Positions 41,375-53,682 of a stretch of DNA of 62,109 nt are shown here, one piece after another; within the stretch, counting starts at the first letter, position 1; every line of letters begins with the position of its first letter. The position numbers and the translations under genes are program-made. This DNA is from Brevinematales bacterium (GTDB lineage Bacteria > Spirochaetota > Brevinematia > Brevinematales > GWF1-51-8): the NCBI GenBank assembly GCA_013177895.1, contig JABLXV010000028.1, forward strand, positions 1 through 62,109. Reading direction: 5' to 3'. The notes beneath the pieces were generated by a model. The model was not told the origin of the DNA. It made no database searches and was given only the letters and a program-made list of their open reading frames with translations.

Positions 41375-41968
41375 ATGGAAATAGAGTTAGCGCGGAAACT
41401 GCTATCCTTCTTCTTCAAAGCCCCGCTGGTAAACGCCCTCCTCGTGTTCGAGGATAACGAGTATTTCGGGGTGGTGTTCAAACGCGATATCGAGATGGGC
41501 CTCCGCGAGGGGACGTTCCGGCTATTCGAGAATATCAGCGCTATCAGCGCGCAGGAACTTACGACCGTACTGTTCGCCCAGCAGGTATCGTCCGACACGG
41601 TGATTCCCGTGATCGACAAGGTCGGCAACCTCAATAAAATCATCTCCTACGAGGAGTTCGAAAGCCACTTCCATTTCGACCGTTTTATCGTGGATTTTTC
41701 GGTCGCTCCCGTGATCGACAGTCTCGATACCCCCATTATGGTGACCAATCACTTCAAGCGAATCCTGTATATGAACCGCGGCGCTTATGAGATCGCGGAG
41801 AAGGATTTTACCGGGTGGAATATCAGCAGTCTCTTGAAACAGTTCGAGATTGAAATATCCGGCGATAAGATGCTCGTGACCGCGGGCGGGATGACCTACC
41901 AGCTCCATATCCATTTCGCGATGGCGGAAAATTTCTCCTACCACGTCTATCAATTCATCCCGGTGTAA
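41375..41968 (+). CDS. protein with CBS-like and PAS-like segments
   Basis: The product has 197 residues and no signal or membrane segment. The first ~105 residues include SSDTVIPVIDKVGNLNKIIS, which follows the pattern of a CBS motif. From ~112 the chain resembles a PAS domain (IDSLDTPIMVTNHFKRILYM, then NRGAYEIAEKDFTGWNISSL), the small-molecule or redox sensing fold. No output domain (kinase, GGDEF, HTH) is attached, so it may sense a ligand and act on a partner protein. It starts 1 base after the DUF4340 gene. Confidence 0.55.
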   Translation: MEIELARKLLSFFFKAPLVNALLVFEDNEYFGVVFKRDIEMGLREGTFRLFENISAISAQELTTVLFAQQVSSDTVIPVIDKVGNLNKIISYEEFESHFHFDRFIVDFSVAPVIDSLDTPIMVTNHFKRILYMNRGAYEIAEKDFTGWNISSLLKQFEIEISGDKMLVTAGGMTYQLHIHFAMAENFSYHVYQFIPV

Positions 41969-42110
41969 AATATCAAATTGTCAGGAATTTTCATTTCGCG
42001 AGGACAAGCTCGATGACCGGGCTGAATGTTTTACCCCAATTTAGTACGGATGCCACGGATTTCACGGGTTGGCGCAGATTATTTCCATAATCGTTATTTC
42101 ACCTTCGATG

Positions 42111-42374
42111 TTATTTTTCTGAGTATTCACTCAAACCGTGTTCGAATTCTAAAAGAAATTCGTGGATCGGAATATCTAGAGCTTTCAGAATGTTTCGAAA
42201 TTCAATGAAATCCAGTCGTCTTTCAAACGTTTCATATTTACTAACGTAGGTTTGGTCAATTCCGAGCAATTCACCTAATTCGGTTTGTGTTACATTTTTG
42301 CTGATCCGGTATTCCTTTAGTAATGAGATGAAATACCGGTATTCGGGATTAAAAATAGTTTTTCTATATGACAT
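42111..42374 (-). CDS. XRE-family helix-turn-helix regulator
   Basis: The product has 87 residues. A Cro/C1-type HTH fills residues ~15-72 (KNVTQTELGELLGIDQTYVS, then KYETFERRLDFIEF), the recognition helix being IDQTYVSKY. The gene is AT-rich compared with its surroundings and divergent from an AT-rich lipoprotein gene. Its start is only 6 bases from a TATAAT on its own strand (complement of 42381-42386), so its mRNA may be leaderless. The palindrome at 42401-42419, between the two genes, is the obvious binding site, making this protein the likely repressor of the lipoprotein and perhaps of itself. Confidence 0.85.
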   Translation of the reverse strand: MSYRKTIFNPEYRYFISLLKEYRISKNVTQTELGELLGIDQTYVSKYETFERRLDFIEFRNILKALDIPIHEFLLEFEHGLSEYSEK

Positions 42375-42393
42375 GAAACTATTATAAAGACAC

Positions 42394-42422
42394 TTGACAA
42401 ATATGCGATAATCGCATATAAT
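42394..42422 (+). promoter_or_regulatory. consensus sigma-70 promoter with 17-bp spacer
   Basis: TTGACA (42394-42399) and TATAAT (42417-42422) are both perfect consensus hexamers, exactly 17 bp apart. Transcription would start near 42430 and reach the lipoprotein start at 42456 via GGAGG (42446-42450). A promoter this strong normally needs a repressor. Confidence 0.9.
42401..42419. promoter_or_regulatory. palindromic operator inside the promoter spacer
   Basis: ATATGCGAT and ATCGCATAT form a perfect inverted repeat around one central A. It fills almost the whole spacer and touches the -10 box, so protein bound here would exclude RNA polymerase. The divergent XRE gene is the natural candidate for the binding protein. 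Confidence 0.85.
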
Positions 42423-42455
42423 AACGAGTGAAAAATCATTATTTTGGAGGTTAAT

Positions 42456-43403
42456 ATGAAGACCGGGATTAGATGTTTTAGTGTTTTAGTGTTATTTAGT
42501 ATTGGTATGTTATCTGGTTGTGCGTCAACCTCAATGAAAATGGTAAAAGGTCAGTATTATCCGGCTAAGCCTAAATGTGCGCTAGTTTATATGGGAATTG
42601 GATGTTATCGTTCTTCCTATTATGGAAGTCAATTTAAAATCAAAGATATTGAGAATTCTTTTAATAAAAGTGTAAAAGAATTCCCGATAGAACGATTGAT
42701 TAAAGCAATAAACATTCAAAACCCTAACTCGGCAATTATTTCAAATTATCAATGGGATAACAATAACTTTGAGAATGGTTACGATTCTGATGCTCTTTCG
42801 GATTATATTATATATCAACCAATAGTAGCAAGTAAAGAACTTGTAATAGGGGGAAGTTATTCGAAGGGTCATTCGGATGGTTATGATACAGGTGTGCATT
42901 ATAGTTTATCATCAAACGCCATAAAAAACTACTTAGATAAAAATGGGTATGATATAGCAATTTTTTGTTTTGTGGATATAATTGGTCCATGGAAGATGCA
43001 TGGGAGTTACGTTACTGTTGAGGTGGATCAGTGGGAAGCTAGAATTAGATTGATTGCAATTGACAATAATTCTTTAATTGTTGGTGTTGCTGGAGTACAG
43101 CGAGGAAAGGCACTTAATAATATTGGTTACGGTCTTTTCTTCAATGAATTTACTGGGAGTTCGATATATTCGAAAAATTATGGTAACTTGTTTACTTCAT
43201 TTTATTCGTTTCTTGATCAGGGGAAACTAAAGTTTGATAAAGTTTACAAAGAAAATGCTTTTGCTGCATGGAAAACTAATTCTATAGAAGGAGGAATTGA
43301 CCTAAAAATTTATAAATCTGACGATTTAATTTCTAACGAAAACATGAGTGTAAATATGGATTATATAAGTTATTATTTAAGTTCAATAATTGACTTTAAA
43401 TAA
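42456..43403 (+). CDS. AT-rich lipoprotein of unknown function, under XRE control
   Basis: The ATG at 42456 follows GGAGG by 5 bases; an upstream TTG is not needed. The product has 315 residues with lipobox GMLSGC. I recognise no domain. The chain is rich in Ser, Asn, Tyr and Lys; blocks such as SDYIIYQPIVASKELVIGGS and YDIAIFCFVDIIGPWKMHGS look like alternating beta strands. Codon use is strongly AT-biased against the neighbouring GC-richer genes, a sign of recent transfer. With the divergent regulator, promoter and operator it forms a self-contained two-gene cassette. Function open: surface exclusion, phage receptor masking and stress lipoproteins are all compatible. Confidence 0.7.
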   Translation: MKTGIRCFSVLVLFSIGMLSGCASTSMKMVKGQYYPAKPKCALVYMGIGCYRSSYYGSQFKIKDIENSFNKSVKEFPIERLIKAINIQNPNSAIISNYQWDNNNFENGYDSDALSDYIIYQPIVASKELVIGGSYSKGHSDGYDTGVHYSLSSNAIKNYLDKNGYDIAIFCFVDIIGPWKMHGSYVTVEVDQWEARIRLIAIDNNSLIVGVAGVQRGKALNNIGYGLFFNEFTGSSIYSKNYGNLFTSFYSFLDQGKLKFDKVYKENAFAAWKTNSIEGGIDLKIYKSDDLISNENMSVNMDYISYYLSSIIDFK

Positions 43404-43427
43404 TATATTTACTTTCATTATTCAATA

Positions 43428-43462
43428 AAAGCCGGAGACACATCGCGTATCCCCGGCTGTTT
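43428..43462 (-). terminator. intrinsic terminator of the glycoside hydrolase gene
   Basis: AGCCGG-A-GA (43430-43438) pairs with TC-C-CCGGCT (43450-43458) with one mismatch; on the minus strand TTTTATTGAA follows. It lies about 20 bases past the stop of the minus-strand gene at 43480. Confidence 0.65.
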
Positions 43463-43479
43463 ATTTCACAAGTTGCTTC

Positions 43480-45843
43480 TTACTTTACAGCTTTGATTAC
43501 CTGAGTAAACACCTTCCCCGCATATTTTACCTCCAGTGAAACGCTAAACGGGAGTGTCGACGAGGCCGCGATCGCGGGCTTGCCGTTATCGATCTTCTCC
43601 ATCACGAGGTCGACCGTACCGCCCGCGAACGGGAGATTCTTCACCCCGTTCTTCTTTTCGCTCGAGATATTCCAGACGATCTTCGACCCTGGGGCGTCGA
43701 GACGGATACCGATCACGTTCTCGATCAATAGCGCGATAGGCCCGTCGCCGGACCACCCCACGAACTTCGGGCGGACATAGAAAATATTATCCCAACGGGT
43801 CGCCGGCTCCTTGAACTCGGAACTGTAGCATTCCCATATCTGCTTGGTGCCGTCGAGATCGGCGGGGAACGGGATATTGTTCTGCTTGTAGGGGAGTTTC
43901 TTCTTGTCGGGCACAAAGTTCGCGTAAACCTCGACCATATTCTGGATATGGTTGAGGGAGGCCTCGAGCGCGAAGTCGTCGAAACCGTTCGCCTCAAGCC
44001 CCTTGATCGTCATAAACGTGGTCGGCGCCCATACCGCGCCCAGCCAGTAATGCCCCTTGGGGTCGTACTCCGGCTCGGACTTGGAGAGGGTCGGGAAAAG
44101 GTGCGGGCGGTAGAACTCGTCGGGATTTTTGAGATGCCCGGTGAGGAGCTTGAGCTGTTCCGGCGACGCGAGCATGGCGAGCATCGGCCAGAATGATGCG
44201 ATGGTCTTTTTCGCGTGGAACGCCCCGTTCTTCTTGACGTCGTAATATATTCCGTCCTTCGCGCTCCACATCTTATCGTTAATGAGCTTCTTCAGCGCGT
44301 CGTACTCCCCTTGGTACTGCTTGGCGAGCTTGGTATTCCCCGCGACCGCGCAGAGTTTCTCCATATACATGGCGAACAGCACCATCTGAGAGGTGATATC
44401 GATCCAGCCGTACGCGGAACCCTCGCGCGGGGAGTTGTCCATGCCGGAGCCGAGGTTCGACGTGAAGTAGAAACCCTCCGGCGTGCGGCAGTTATTTTTC
44501 AGCCATTGGAAATATTTATGGTTGTGGTAGATCGCGGGGAGAAGGCGCGATTCGTCGCCGGTCTTCATCAGGTAATTGTACTCCACCCACGCGTACAACG
44601 GGGGATTGATATGCGGGTCGGTGGGGGTAGGGTCGTAGTCCTTCCCGGTGGTCTCGCTCTGCACGCGGCAGATATACCCGTTCTCGCGCTGTTTCAGGTA
44701 GAAGTTATCGACCGAGTACATCGCGGGGAACTCGTTACCGCCGTACACCCCGAAGAACATCATGAAGCACGTATCCCATTGATAGATATGGTCGTTGAAG
44801 CCCTCGTCCATATACGCCGCGACGAACCCCTTGGCGACGTTGCCCTTGGATATCTTCTCGCGCGCGAAGCCCCAAGCCGCGTTATATAAGTCGATATAGT
44901 CGGGGTTCTCGTCGTAGATCACCTCCGGGAGCCCCGTGCCCGCCGGGTGTAACGCGAGGTCGCATATCGAGGTCTGGTTCGGCGCGAGATAGACGGCGTT
45001 CTTTACCGCAGTGGGTTCGGCGGTATTGCCGAGCCAGTTGCCGTCCCATACCCCGTTACCGTTGATATCCTCGAACCCTTTGACGGTGTACTTGCCCGCC
45101 GGAACCGCGCCGGAGAGGTATTTCCCGTCCTTGTCGCACTTGACGGCGACGGGCGCGAAATCGTACTCCTCGTAGTCGCTGATATAGACGGGGTACAGCA
45201 CGGCGTAGAGCGCGCCCTTGCCGGAGCCGGTGATTTTACCGCCGAGTTTGGCGGTATTCTTCAGTTCCATCTTCTCAGCCCCCTTGAAGTACTTGAACGA
45301 TTTCCCTTTACTTTTGTTGCCGTTCATGTCGTAGGTGACGATGGTAAACAGGTAGTCCTTGTATTGGTCGAGTTTACCGAATTCTAAAATTGTATCCTCA
45401 TATTTCTTCTTGAGTATTTTCGCGGGAGCCAACCCTTCCTGGAGGAGTATTTCCACCCACGCGGCGTCCGGGGACGGGGAAGGATTCCACCGCAGGACGG
45501 CGTCACCGTTATCCTTGAACCCTATGCGTATATTCGACACCTCCATCGGCGGCATCTTCTCGATCATTGCGACCTTCATCTCGGAATTCGCATCGAGGTC
45601 GGCCCACCCGATATAGACGAACTTATACTCCTTCTTGGAGACTTGCAGTTTCTCCGTGTCGATACTCCCGGTGTCCACCTCGGCGGTACCGTCGTCTCCC
45701 GTGATCGCGAGCACGTCCCCCGCGACAAAGTTCACCCCCTTGATGGGCTCGCCCGTATCCTTGTCGGTCACCGTGAACTTGACGATCCTGCCCCCGCACG
45801 ATGCGAGGAATAATGCGACGAAAACCATAACGAGATTTTTCAT
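43480..45843 (-). CDS. lipoprotein glycoside hydrolase, MGH1/GH63-like (alpha/alpha)6 barrel
   Basis: The product has 787 residues with lipobox LASC. Residues ~25-100 form a carboxypeptidase-regulatory-like beta domain, ~100-190 a fibronectin-like domain (AVLRWNPSPSPDAAWVEILL), ~195-300 further beta modules, and ~320-730 an (alpha/alpha)6 toroid as in mannosylglycerate hydrolase-like and GH63/GH37 enzymes: IYQWDTCFMMFFGVYGGNEF near the start, REGSAYGWIDITSQMVLFAM with the acidic cleft residue, and YWLGAVWAPTTFMTIKGLEA and KEPATRWDNIFYVRPKFVGW later. Likely substrates are alpha-linked gluco- or mannosides outside the cell. GGAGGG precedes the ATG; the gene is monocistronic. Confidence 0.8.
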   Translation of the reverse strand: MKNLVMVFVALFLASCGGRIVKFTVTDKDTGEPIKGVNFVAGDVLAITGDDGTAEVDTGSIDTEKLQVSKKEYKFVYIGWADLDANSEMKVAMIEKMPPMEVSNIRIGFKDNGDAVLRWNPSPSPDAAWVEILLQEGLAPAKILKKKYEDTILEFGKLDQYKDYLFTIVTYDMNGNKSKGKSFKYFKGAEKMELKNTAKLGGKITGSGKGALYAVLYPVYISDYEEYDFAPVAVKCDKDGKYLSGAVPAGKYTVKGFEDINGNGVWDGNWLGNTAEPTAVKNAVYLAPNQTSICDLALHPAGTGLPEVIYDENPDYIDLYNAAWGFAREKISKGNVAKGFVAAYMDEGFNDHIYQWDTCFMMFFGVYGGNEFPAMYSVDNFYLKQRENGYICRVQSETTGKDYDPTPTDPHINPPLYAWVEYNYLMKTGDESRLLPAIYHNHKYFQWLKNNCRTPEGFYFTSNLGSGMDNSPREGSAYGWIDITSQMVLFAMYMEKLCAVAGNTKLAKQYQGEYDALKKLINDKMWSAKDGIYYDVKKNGAFHAKKTIASFWPMLAMLASPEQLKLLTGHLKNPDEFYRPHLFPTLSKSEPEYDPKGHYWLGAVWAPTTFMTIKGLEANGFDDFALEASLNHIQNMVEVYANFVPDKKKLPYKQNNIPFPADLDGTKQIWECYSSEFKEPATRWDNIFYVRPKFVGWSGDGPIALLIENVIGIRLDAPGSKIVWNISSEKKNGVKNLPFAGGTVDLVMEKIDNGKPAIAASSTLPFSVSLEVKYAGKVFTQVIKAVK

Positions 45844-46611: not shown

Positions 46612-47814
46612 ATGTATAAAATTGAAAAAAGTATTGAAAAAGCAATCGCTGGGCTAAAAGGTGGAGAATTTGAGGCTTTTTGTAGCTATTTTTTTTCAAT
46701 TGTGTATAATTATAAAGATATAGAATCGAGTAGAGATGAAAATAATCAACCTGTACGGGGAGTTGATGCATATTATCGGTTGGAAAATGGTGAATTTATT
46801 ATTTTTCAATATACTTCACAAGAAAAAGATTTGAAAACAAAGATAATTAATGATATTGAGATTCTAAACTCTGATAAACCGGATTATCAAGTATTTAAAA
46901 ACCATATAAAAAAAGTTATAGTATGTATCAATCAACCAGATCGTGGGAGTATTATTGAATATGAAAAATGTGCAAAAAAATACGGCTGGGAATTTGAGCT
47001 ATTTACACTTCATAGGTTGACTAAAATATCGATAGATAATGATGAAATTTTAAAAAAATACTTTTCTGACCTTAACTATGTTGAGAAAATTCTATATTTC
47101 GATTGTGGAGCACGGATAAAAGAAGTTAGGGAAGAAAGGAATTTACTTTCAAGTGAATTTATAGAGTTAGTAGGTTTCGGAAGTGAAAAAGAATTAATAG
47201 AGATTGAAAACCGAGAAAAGGAAGCGACTCTAGAATTTTTACAAGTTCTATCAAAAAACACCTCGGTTGAATTAGAATGGTTAAAACATGGGAAATATAC
47301 GAAATATGATATTAAATATTTTGAAACATCTGAATTGGATTATTTCATAGATAAAGAAAGACATTTTACAATATACTTCTGTTTAGAAATAACAGAAATG
47401 AATCTTTTATTCTTATATGCTTTTACTGAGAATAAATGGATTTGTCGAAAATATTTTTGCGACTTAAATTTTGATTCTTGGTTTGATGATCATAATAAAA
47501 TTAAAGACATATTTATTCAATTAAGAAAAATATTTTCTAGCTTAAAAAATTATACTTCATTTGGGAGAATAATAAGTCCAGAAGTATACCGTAGAATTCT
47601 TGGAGGTAAGGAATTTTTTAAGAATATTCCTACTATATATCAAGGAAATAATTCATGGTGGTTTGATGATATATGTGATATTTATGATAAGTACGATATA
47701 AGTATTAATTATAAGATTAGGTATGAAGATTGGTTTTTTAAACTGAAGGATAATTTCTTAAAGTATATGGATTATGAATACTACCAAAAAAAGACTAATA
47801 ACACTCATAAATAA
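46612..47814 (+). CDS. fusion of PD-(D/E)XK-like nuclease domain, XRE HTH and unknown C-domain
   Basis: The product has 400 residues in strongly AT-biased sequence. Residues 1-160 resemble a Mrr/SMEK-like restriction-endonuclease fold: GGEFEAFCSYFFS (helix with Glu20), VRGVDAYYRLENGEFIIFQY with Asp52, and QYTS (Gln66) where many family members have QxK or QVTS. Residues ~167-228 are an XRE-type HTH (ARIKEVREERNLLSSEFIEL ... SVELEWLKHGK). The last ~170 residues are unrecognised, aromatic and charged. Such nuclease-plus-sensor fusions are typical of anti-phage or anti-plasmid genes, but this exact order is unfamiliar to me. The changed catalytic Lys leaves activity uncertain. It lies 5 bases after DUF2442 with only a weak AAGG. 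Confidence 0.6.
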   Translation: MYKIEKSIEKAIAGLKGGEFEAFCSYFFSIVYNYKDIESSRDENNQPVRGVDAYYRLENGEFIIFQYTSQEKDLKTKIINDIEILNSDKPDYQVFKNHIKKVIVCINQPDRGSIIEYEKCAKKYGWEFELFTLHRLTKISIDNDEILKKYFSDLNYVEKILYFDCGARIKEVREERNLLSSEFIELVGFGSEKELIEIENREKEATLEFLQVLSKNTSVELEWLKHGKYTKYDIKYFETSELDYFIDKERHFTIYFCLEITEMNLLFLYAFTENKWICRKYFCDLNFDSWFDDHNKIKDIFIQLRKIFSSLKNYTSFGRIISPEVYRRILGGKEFFKNIPTIYQGNNSWWFDDICDIYDKYDISINYKIRYEDWFFKLKDNFLKYMDYEYYQKKTNNTHK

Positions 47815-51008: not shown

Positions 51009-51036
51009 TTGACAATTAACAACGTATATGTATAAT
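51009..51036 (+). promoter_or_regulatory. strong sigma-70 promoter of the AT-rich cassette
   Basis: TTGACA (51009-51014) and TATAAT (51031-51036) are consensus hexamers with a 16-bp spacer, about 37 bases before the start at 51073. The downstream leader is AT-rich with TATTATATAATA (51040-51051) as a small palindrome. Confidence 0.75.
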
Positions 51037-51072: not shown

Positions 51073-51744
51073 ATGGAAAGTATTCCAAAGATAATTCAAG
51101 AATTTCGAAACACTGTAAAAAACATTTCAATTACAGATCAAACTAATGAATATTTTGAGTTATTACAAAAAATTTGGAGTACTCCTAAAATAGAAAAAAG
51201 GCTTAAATTATGTGAAGAAAGCTTCAAATATATTGAAGCATTAATAATTACAACAAAGCTTACTTTTTCCATATATGATCTTTCAGAAAAATGGAGTTTA
51301 TTAATGGATGATAATAAAAAAACCGAAAAGGCTGTAATAAAAAAAATTCAGGAAATATATCCTAATCTTGAGGCAAATAGCGATATAAAAGAATTTGGGA
51401 AGTTTGATTTATCATCAATTCCTGCACTTCAAGTTGCAGGTGAAATTTATGCTCTTAAGGGTATGAAAGAAAAAATCGATATATTAAAAGATATTGTGTA
51501 TTTCTTTAGTGATTTATTCGATTGGCGTGATTTCATAGAAAATCAATATAATGAATTAAAAATTGCCAAAACTATATTAGAGTATATTAAAAATAATCCA
51601 GGATTTCATCAGAACAAAATAAAAGCAGCTTTGGAGTTAAATCAAGATGGACGATATATAGCAGGGTTAATTAAGAGGATGGAAAGTTATAATTTAATTA
51701 AAAGAAAAAAAGAGGGGAATAATTATAATTTGTTTTTAGAATAA
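51073..51744 (+). CDS. AT-rich protein with C-terminal winged-helix-like domain
   Basis: The product has 223 residues, no signal peptide. Residues 1-150 look all-helical. From ~152 a winged-helix pattern appears: IAKTILEYIKNNPGFHQNKI, then KAALELNQDGRYIAGLIKRM (recognition helix) and ESYNLIKRKKEGNNYNLFL (wing). Such domains read DNA or, in defence genes, hold regulatory contacts. I cannot name the family. Codon use is strongly AT-biased, unlike purN/rseP upstream. The next gene starts 18 bases later and forms the second half of the cassette. Confidence 0.65.
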   Translation: MESIPKIIQEFRNTVKNISITDQTNEYFELLQKIWSTPKIEKRLKLCEESFKYIEALIITTKLTFSIYDLSEKWSLLMDDNKKTEKAVIKKIQEIYPNLEANSDIKEFGKFDLSSIPALQVAGEIYALKGMKEKIDILKDIVYFFSDLFDWRDFIENQYNELKIAKTILEYIKNNPGFHQNKIKAALELNQDGRYIAGLIKRMESYNLIKRKKEGNNYNLFLE

Positions 51745-52368
51745 AGTAATTACGGATAGTATATGAAGAAAATATTAGGACAAATTCTTTCTTCTTCTCT
51801 CGAGGATACTCAAGGGGAAATTTTTACAAAACAAGATTTAATTGATCTAGCGGAAGCAGCAAATAAAAAAGCACCAATTGATTTTAATCAACGCCATGAT
51901 CCTAAACTAGGAAAATTAGGATATATAAATAATTTTAAAGTAGTGCCATCAAGAATCCATCTAAATGAATATGATTTAATTGGTGATATATATTTAAGTA
52001 TTGATGAGATTCCTCCTGACCTAAAAGCATTCAGTTTAAGTACAATAAAACCAATTTATGGAAATAGTGATGCTAAAATTGCATTTTTTATCCCTTATCC
52101 ATTTTATCAAAATGAGGAATATCTAAAAAGTTTATTTATCGATAATGAGATAATTATTGGAAAGCATATTCAAAAAGCTGCTGAGGTACCTCTTGTAGCT
52201 TTAATTATATCTAAAATAGTATCAACTATTGTTGATAAAGTTTTTGAAAATACTGTATATCCAGTATTAAAAAGAAATTTTTCGATTATTATAGAGCTTT
52301 GGAAGAAGAGTATTGAAACTAATTTAATAATTTGGCAACAAACAAACAATTTCCAATATCAGATAATG

Positions 52369-53682
52369 GGTTCTTTCGCAAATTAAGTGGGTAAGTAAGC
52401 TGAATTGATTCTTGAAAAGTCCATTTTACCCGTCAGCAAATACGCGATAATTTTAAAGTTCTTCTGTGACGAATAACCCCTTGCACGCGCTTTCGCCGCC
52501 TGTATCAACGACGCAATTCCTTCCAATATCCCATTATTAATTCTACTTTTGATCCAATTCATCACGCCGTCCCAATGTCTTCTGATCGTTTTAGCCGCCT
52601 CTACAATCGCCCCGATCCTGCTGTGAGTCGCAAGATAATACCATTTCTTCAATCCGCGCTCGAACACTTCGTCGGTTCCAGCCGTATAAAGTTCGCGGAA
52701 CAGTTCTTTAAGCTGAAACGCTTTCAACGTCTTTTTCCCGCATTCGGCAAAACGTATCTTATCGAGTTTATCCAAATCGCCCGGCGTCAGGTTTTCATTG
52801 TTTTTCAAAAACACATATTTCATTCCCTTCAGATTCGGATCGGTCCTGACCTCCAGCCTTCTGACTCTATCCACCGCATCGTTGATAATCTTCATCACAT
52901 GGAACCTGTCAAATGTCACCTCGGCTTCGGGCAAATTCTCCCTCACACCCTTGATAAACGCCGGCGACATGTCGCAGCTCACCTGACTGATATTTTCAGC
53001 CTTACCGTTCTGCTGTTCCAGCATGGAGATAAACTCCTCGACCGTCCCGCTTCCCTTGCCGTCGGCGATAAACAATGTCCTCCGGCGAATCAAATCCACG
53101 AACAGCGTGATGTAATCGTGATGTTTCTTCTGCGAGGTTTCGTCGATCCCTACCGCCGTGACATCGCTGTAATCGCTCTGTTTGAGATATGCCAAAACAT
53201 ACCGTTCCAGCATTTTCCAGATTTTATCGTCCGACGCGCCTGTGATTTTCGAGGCCTTGTACACCGGCATCCCCATGCACAACTGCAAGAGCAGCGCCTC
53301 GAACAGTAGCGTGAAGCCGTTCGACATGCCCTCCCACGGCATCTTCACCTGCTTGATCCCGTCGTCATACTTGATCCTCGGCACCCGCGCGTGCAGATAG
53401 CATTCGTGCTCGAAGAAGTTCAGGTGCCGCCACGTCTTATCCACGGTGTCGTAGGCTTTCGCCTGAACCGCCTCGCCGTTCTTTCCGGTGATAGTGAACA
53501 TAGCGCCTTTCCTGAAATCGATGTGGATGTCGAGCTTCTTCTTGTCCGCGTCGAATCGATATCCTTCACAAAGTACGGCTCGGTTATCCCCAGAGCCATC
53601 TCGAATAGTTTATTTTGCATGGATTATTATATTTTATCCATTCATATTTCTCATCTTTACCCACTCGTTTTTAGAAAGAACC
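52369..53682 (-). mobile_element. ISL3-family insertion sequence, copy 2 (1314 bp, inverted)
   Basis: It has the same length and ends as copy 1 (GGTTCTTTC termini, AGTGGGTAA inner ends) on the opposite strand. The flanks are AGATAATG (52361-52368) and AAATAATG (53683-53690): an 8-bp duplication with one change. It lies inside a gene. The copies differ by their compensating one-base deletions and otherwise appear the same wherever I compared them. Confidence 0.95.
52383..53620 (-). pseudogene. ISL3-family transposase, frameshifted near the N-terminus
   Basis: The first ~20 codons from the ATG at 53620 read as in copy 1 (MQNKLFEMALGITEPYFVKD). Near 53555 the sequence reads ATATCGATTCGACG where copy 1 has ATATCGAATTCGACG; the missing A shifts the frame into a premature stop at 53420. 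A long frame that begins at an internal ATG (53501) carries the rest, including all three DDE residues and the intact C-terminus that copy 1 lacks (ending FSRINSAYLPT). Re-initiation at 53501 would give a 372-residue product without the N-terminal ~40 residues. Confidence 0.9.

Follow-up and report, generated by a model that had tools for sequence, protein, structure and literature searches.

What kind of circuit lies between the two divergent AT-rich genes of a Brevinematales bacterium, an XRE regulator gene and a lipoprotein gene, where a perfect palindrome sits inside a perfect promoter, and does this palindrome belong to the regulator beside it? The window is the whole 62,109-nt stretch analysed here (contig JABLXV010000028.1), and its relevant features are the following.

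41967-43508, no strand: AT-rich insert of 1,542 nt (33% GC) between two conserved genes, from comparison with sister genomes
42111-42374, minus strand: XRE (HTH_3) repressor gene, 87 aa, controller-protein-like, recognition helix DQTYVSK, ATG at 42374
42381-42386, minus strand: XRE promoter -10, TATAAT, ending six bases before the XRE ATG
42394-42399, plus strand: lipoprotein promoter -35, TTGACA
42401-42419, no strand: predicted operator, a perfect odd 19-bp palindrome, ATATGCGAT-A-ATCGCATAT, from its sequence and the operator of relatives
42404-42409, minus strand: XRE promoter -35-like ATCGCA (3 of 6 bases), inside the operator
42417-42422, plus strand: lipoprotein promoter -10, TATAAT, its first three bases shared with the operator
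42446-42450, plus strand: lipoprotein gene ribosome-binding site, GGAGG
42456-43403, plus strand: lipoprotein gene, 315 aa, with signal peptide and LSGC lipobox, ATG at 42456
43430-43458, no strand: terminator-like hairpin after the lipoprotein gene

The arrangement described by the sequence-only reading, a perfect promoter with a perfect palindrome between divergent XRE and lipoprotein genes, was confirmed. The lipoprotein promoter (42394-42422) reads TTGACA-17-TATAAT and agrees with the sigma-70 consensus in 12 of 12 positions, and its transcript is predicted to start near 42429. The palindrome had been placed in the spacer, which holds for 16 of the 17 spacer bases, while its last three bases (42417-42419) belong to the -10 hexamer. 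It is the predicted binding site of an XRE dimer and, judging from its position, a dimer bound to it would lie over the lipoprotein promoter, so that the proposed placement of a blocking repressor stands. The -10-like TATAAT of the regulator does lie six bases from its start codon, as had been stated, and no ribosome-binding site was found for this gene; a leaderless XRE message is plausible and fits a trait described as common among restriction-controller genes (PMC4824078, in excerpt). The palindrome also extends over the -35 region of the XRE promoter, which suggests autorepression. Two terms of the earlier description were not borne out. It spoke of an operator set, but the site is single, as a second one with up to 6 mismatches to the family operator (see below) was not found in 42320-42520. 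It also spoke of a switch, but the 87-aa protein has neither a sensor nor a protease domain, and there is no sign of two states.

Taken alone, neither the palindrome nor the promoter is remarkable. The palindrome at 42401-42419 is the only perfect one with arms of at least 8 (gap 0-1) in the window; a mean of 0.7 palindromes with arms of at least 9 was obtained in Markov order-1 samples of the window (20 samples), and for this reason it is not striking by itself. The same applies to the promoter, because the window contains four 12/12 promoters (16-18 nt spacers; 42394+, 51009+, 29792- and 11543-) against 0.02 expected in the Markov samples, which makes perfect sigma-70 promoters a frequent feature here. 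When samples had the composition of the 1,542-nt insert, such a palindrome was present in 3.6% of them and a 12/12 promoter in 0.4%. What raises the observation above chance is the match of the palindrome to the operators of XRE relatives. In the whole genome, the 19-mer was found with up to 3 mismatches at three places, namely the window (no mismatch), G000:C20:43700 (2 mismatches) and C8:50297 (3 mismatches), the window palindrome being the sole copy with 0-1 mismatch. The 2-mismatch copy (L003:1501-1519, or G000:C20:43700-43718) is intergenic, with a 167-aa ORF about 200 nt downstream; a genome-wide regulon was considered, and this one near copy is too weak to claim it. As for the other perfect promoters, that at 51009 lies ahead of an orphan gene rich in AT (51073-51744), and an ISL3-family transposase (52383-53501, 4e-65) adjoins the AT-rich genes at 51073-52386.

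A search for the same palindrome in front of homologues had been proposed, and it was run on 95 loci of XRE relatives, 15 from viral contigs and 80 of 92 from one-per-species genomes. Palindromes of the TATGCGA type were first noticed before several of the closest relatives, among the 46 loci (of 95) that were inspected first. Over all 95 loci, the family operator TATGCGA-WWW-TCGCATA occurs with 0-1 mismatch 7 times in 17,746 upstream positions vs 0 in 508,320 others, with 2 mismatches 0 times upstream and once elsewhere, and with 3 mismatches 5 times upstream and 3 times elsewhere. Seven XRE relatives therefore carry the site upstream, in Bacteroidota (L042, L045, L048), Cyanobacteria (L044, L046, L087) and Omnitrophota (L047), and in each of these seven genomes the site upstream of the XRE gene is the only 0-1-mismatch site genome-wide, the reversed control pattern being present in one of the seven. 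Among loci with a DQ[ST][YF][VI]SK helix, 10 of 25 carry the looser ATGC-N7-GCAT upstream, vs 0 of 69 others; this helix class was defined after the first matches and comprises related, non-independent loci, so that the Fisher value makes the association look stronger than it is. L041 lacked upstream sequence, and the remaining 15 DQ-type loci do not have the looser site upstream. A weaker second site follows 15 bases further on in L042, L045 and L048, and 57 bases further on in L044 and L087. These sequence comparisons make it very probable that the palindrome serves as operator for the XRE protein itself.

The company of the site in other genomes is informative as well. Six of the seven operator-bearing loci, together with L164 (described below), are restriction-modification cassettes, in which a divergent methyltransferase gene, the operator, and an XRE gene with an HNH nuclease gene follow each other. 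In L044, on which Pfam was run among the operator-bearing cassettes, the divergent 760-aa gene encodes an N6_N4 DNA methyltransferase (N6_N4_Mtase, 2e-20) and XRE is followed by a gene for an HNH nuclease (2.5e-7); L042, L045, L046, L048 and L087 have the same layout from reading of their translations. The L044 HNH nuclease had no match in plasmids, and for L047, which bears the operator, no restriction gene was seen on its 4-kb contig. Locus L043 combines an XRE gene with a ScaI-type endonuclease (4e-78) and a methyltransferase, and its palindrome is of a different type. The methyltransferase promoter of L044, L046 and L087 is TTGACA-17-GAAA[AT]T with the -10 inside the operator, and that of L164 reads likewise. 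Such a layout, promoter overlap and second sites characterise restriction controllers, or C proteins. The window shares with these cassettes (L042, L044-L046, L048, L087 and L164) the operator (0-1 mismatch) and the DQT[YF] recognition helix, and with the cyanobacterial ones the position of the operator over the divergent gene's promoter. In contrast to the divergent methyltransferase and the HNH nuclease after XRE of the cassettes, the window has a lipoprotein gene and nothing after XRE; by gene order, the lipoprotein stands in the methyltransferase's slot.

Searches with the pattern alone showed how far the site can be used without the regulator. An exact-pattern scan of 392 Spirochaetota genomes gave 3 matches, in the genome itself and in two others, where they sit in open frames without an XRE gene. 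In viral contigs seven stretches matched, none of the seven beside a gene of this XRE kind; in one (L156) the site falls within an open frame with an XRE-profile match of its own, another (L151) has a weak XRE-profile match nearby, and the longer form ATATGCGAWWWTCGCATAT had no match in viral contigs. Scanning 291 genomes of the order of the Nostoc locus gave two matches, the Nostoc itself and one new genome (L164), where the site lies between an XRE gene (DQTFVSK, E 3e-36) and a divergent methyltransferase gene (8e-179), and an HNH gene (6e-116) comes after the XRE gene. By itself the site thus has little diagnostic value; where relatives of the regulator exist, it can adjoin them and occur nowhere else in the genome.

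The regulator belongs to the HTH_3 / XRE family (PF01381), with 45.1 bits for the 87-aa protein vs a curated cut-off of 23. Its AF2 model (pLDDT 89.9) has C.BclI as first Foldseek match (E 1.5e-4), with C.EcoT38IS and C.Esp1396I also high, and the XRE proteins 3f6w and 3eus score like the C proteins. phmmer also matched it to C.BclI (3.9e-9) and PADLOC to Control_protein (4.6e-5). Compared with the C proteins of Type II restriction-modification systems (the solved C.BclI, C.EcoT38IS and C.Esp1396I, as well as C.Kpn2I, C.EcoO109I/C.Csp231I and C.PvuII), it is likewise a small single-domain HTH protein with, in the model, a C-protein fold, its message is predicted to be leaderless, and a palindromic candidate operator overlaps the promoters of the regulator and of the divergent gene. 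Unlike C proteins, it has no adjoining restriction endonuclease or methyltransferase gene, as seen by eye among the ORFs at 38-47 kb and by Pfam for XRE, lipoprotein and the ORF at 46612, and it has one operator site in 42320-42520, not two serving activation and then repression. That ORF (46612-47814) is AT-rich, encodes 400 aa and has an internal weak HTH_19 / PADLOC HTH_VI match. The three N6_N4 methylases (PF01555) of the genome sit on other contigs, and no HNH relative was found in five genomes of the order (G000-G003 and G005), in a search run without a positive control. As no restriction genes lie beside the regulator, it is not classed among the C proteins of restriction systems. It is instead a C-like repressor that stands alone, its restriction system missing, and probably works like a C protein. 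A HipB-like type II antitoxin did not fit, with 23.4 bits vs a cut-off of 79 and a lipoprotein partner without family match. The nearest XRE relative (L041/L005, 61%) is located at a contig end, where the upstream region is cut off.

Reportedly, Sorokin et al. described ten C-protein motifs in 2009. Sites of the TATGCGA type are not listed in the passages of later papers that cite Sorokin et al. (2009), and no description of the present arrangement was found in the open-licence literature searched. The window operator, TATGCGA-N3-TCGCATA, differs from the C-protein boxes GACT-tat-AGTC or CTAAG-n5-CTTAG given in excerpts of PMC4824078, which also present leaderless messages as common in C-protein operons, though the trait is not universal; C.PvuII has such a message (PMC2997769, in excerpt). 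C.Kpn2I reportedly represses a strong divergent methyltransferase promoter and thereby favours its own overlapping promoters (PMC6237814, in excerpt). RptR, a Type I restriction repressor, can be set beside the window protein by description only: it is also a small dimeric repressor, it controls a defence island, it binds TAGCTA repeats and it is reported without close structural relatives (PMC12255303, in excerpt).

The lipoprotein itself offers few clues. Pfam, searched up to E 10, gave no match to it, nor did NCBIfam, PHROGs, PADLOC or PDB sequences, and no relative turned up in genome contigs, viral contigs, plasmids or phage records. Among 100 relatives, only the protein itself was found, together with a weak 28% match (E 0.004) inside a repeat-rich protein, which was judged to be chance. 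Its AF2 model on the single sequence (pLDDT 34) was not taken into fold searches, and a likeness to CsgG/LpoB-type proteins was an impression by eye that no search bore out. With no match in PHROGs, phage records and viral contigs, it was not identified as a phage superinfection-exclusion protein.

Both genes had been called AT-rich and the lipoprotein foreign, and the surroundings agree. The GC content of the XRE gene is 0.337 and that of the lipoprotein gene 0.314 vs 0.50 in the window, and the pair lies on a foreign-looking 33% GC insert, with other DNA at that place in two sister genomes. The conserved flanking genes (left 41375-41968, right 43480-45843) are neighbours in two same-genus genomes too, with left/right DNA identities of 92.7%/88.6% in G002 and 84.5%/84.8% in G001. 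Between them, G002 has 1.0 kb with no ORF of 100 aa, and G001 has 1.9 kb with a SIR2-like ORF (L140:2968-3975; SIR2_2, E 4e-4, under the cut-off); in G003, homology stops close to the left gene, near a contig end. Defence-type cargo may insert at this spot. No tRNA was found in the window as an insertion site, and no Rfam match in 41900-43600. G001 and G002 also have the hairpin element of 43430-43458 near the same gene, with a different relative position in G002.

Putting these data together, it is likely that the window protein is a solitary C-type repressor that acts through one palindrome on both the divergent lipoprotein gene and its own gene, with a burst of lipoprotein expression on entry followed by shut-off. 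An XRE dimer on 42401-42419 would cover the gap between the lipoprotein -35 and -10 and the start of the -10, as well as the -35 region of the XRE promoter, so that one shared site would keep both divergent genes low by negative autoregulation and lipoprotein repression. Without repressor, the perfect lipoprotein promoter would win until repressor builds up, because the two promoters overlap and could not be used simultaneously. Entry into a new cell would thus lead to an early burst of lipoprotein and then to shut-off, by analogy with the methyltransferase-first order of C proteins, with the lipoprotein replacing the methyltransferase. Binding, repression, autoregulation, transcript starts and burst are what we infer from the anatomy of the locus and by analogy with the relatives. 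A more elaborate version, which we consider quite improbable, is that the controller circuit has been taken over for a surface lipoprotein whose burst acts as an early shield of the incoming insert against further phages or plasmids, and that the controller may also repress in trans the methylase of incoming restriction cassettes that carry the same operator, an action likened to the incompatibility described for C proteins (PMC3874152, in excerpt).

The pair could instead be an ordinary autoregulated XRE/orphan pair of a mobile element, such as a phage- or plasmid-type immunity repressor with a surface-exclusion lipoprotein, its C-likeness reflecting a broad family of small XRE proteins. Such a pair would agree with the PHROGs transcriptional repressors that match the HTH of the regulator, with its plasmid and phage relatives at 37-49% identity, and with the report that C.Kpn2I is closer to XRE proteins of which many are unlinked to restriction systems (PMC6237814, in excerpt). 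The tree gives no support for placement either: among 36 XRE proteins, long or fragmentary ones excluded, the window protein is not placed with support inside the operator-bearing rows, and a single clade of operator-bearing proteins is neither supported nor contradicted. However, the operator letters are common to HNH restriction cassettes of other phyla and the lipoprotein has no PHROGs, phage or plasmid match, which makes this explanation rather unlikely.

If the palindrome were the site of another host regulator or an Xer-type recombination site, the XRE gene would be a bystander. Chance can yield such palindromes in DNA of this make-up, and TCGCATA-like arms appear in a paper on dif sites (PMC2731167, in excerpt), but there is a single strong copy in the genome, it lies mid-insert rather than at the insert edge, and the same site precedes XRE relatives of several phyla, so that we regard this as very unlikely. 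The least credible explanation is a mere coincidence of promoter and palindrome with a constitutive lipoprotein gene, to which the four perfect promoters of the window and the 0.7 such palindromes expected per 62 kb would lend themselves; against it, place, exact promoter and the operator letters of relatives all coincide.

As a solitary C-type repressor locus, the pair would be a restriction-system control circuit, apparently without its restriction system, guarding an orphan surface protein at a place where a sister genome has a SIR2-like gene. A known bacterial control circuit seems to have been turned to another purpose here. The matched regulator/operator pair (DQT[YF][VI]SK with TATGCGA-N3-TCGCATA) extends across phyla and is directly testable.

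Other helices and palindromes were seen in the same XRE family. In L029 (46-65 nt before XRE) and L054 (9-40 nt), a PQSFVSK helix goes with palindromes of the GGGAT-A-ATCC type, hinting at a readable link between helix and operator. Upstream of XRE in L009, L013 and L015, ACTTATAGT...GTAGACTTATAGT-like repeats resemble the GACT-tat-AGTC boxes of PvuII-type controllers. Finally, in two Caulobacteraceae loci (L051 and L069), DQ-type XRE genes are preceded by the related operators ATGCCTGTTTAGCAT and ATGCTAGTTTAGCAT; each lies beside two opposite-strand genes (about 190 and 110 aa), which may be a different cargo controlled by a regulator of this type.
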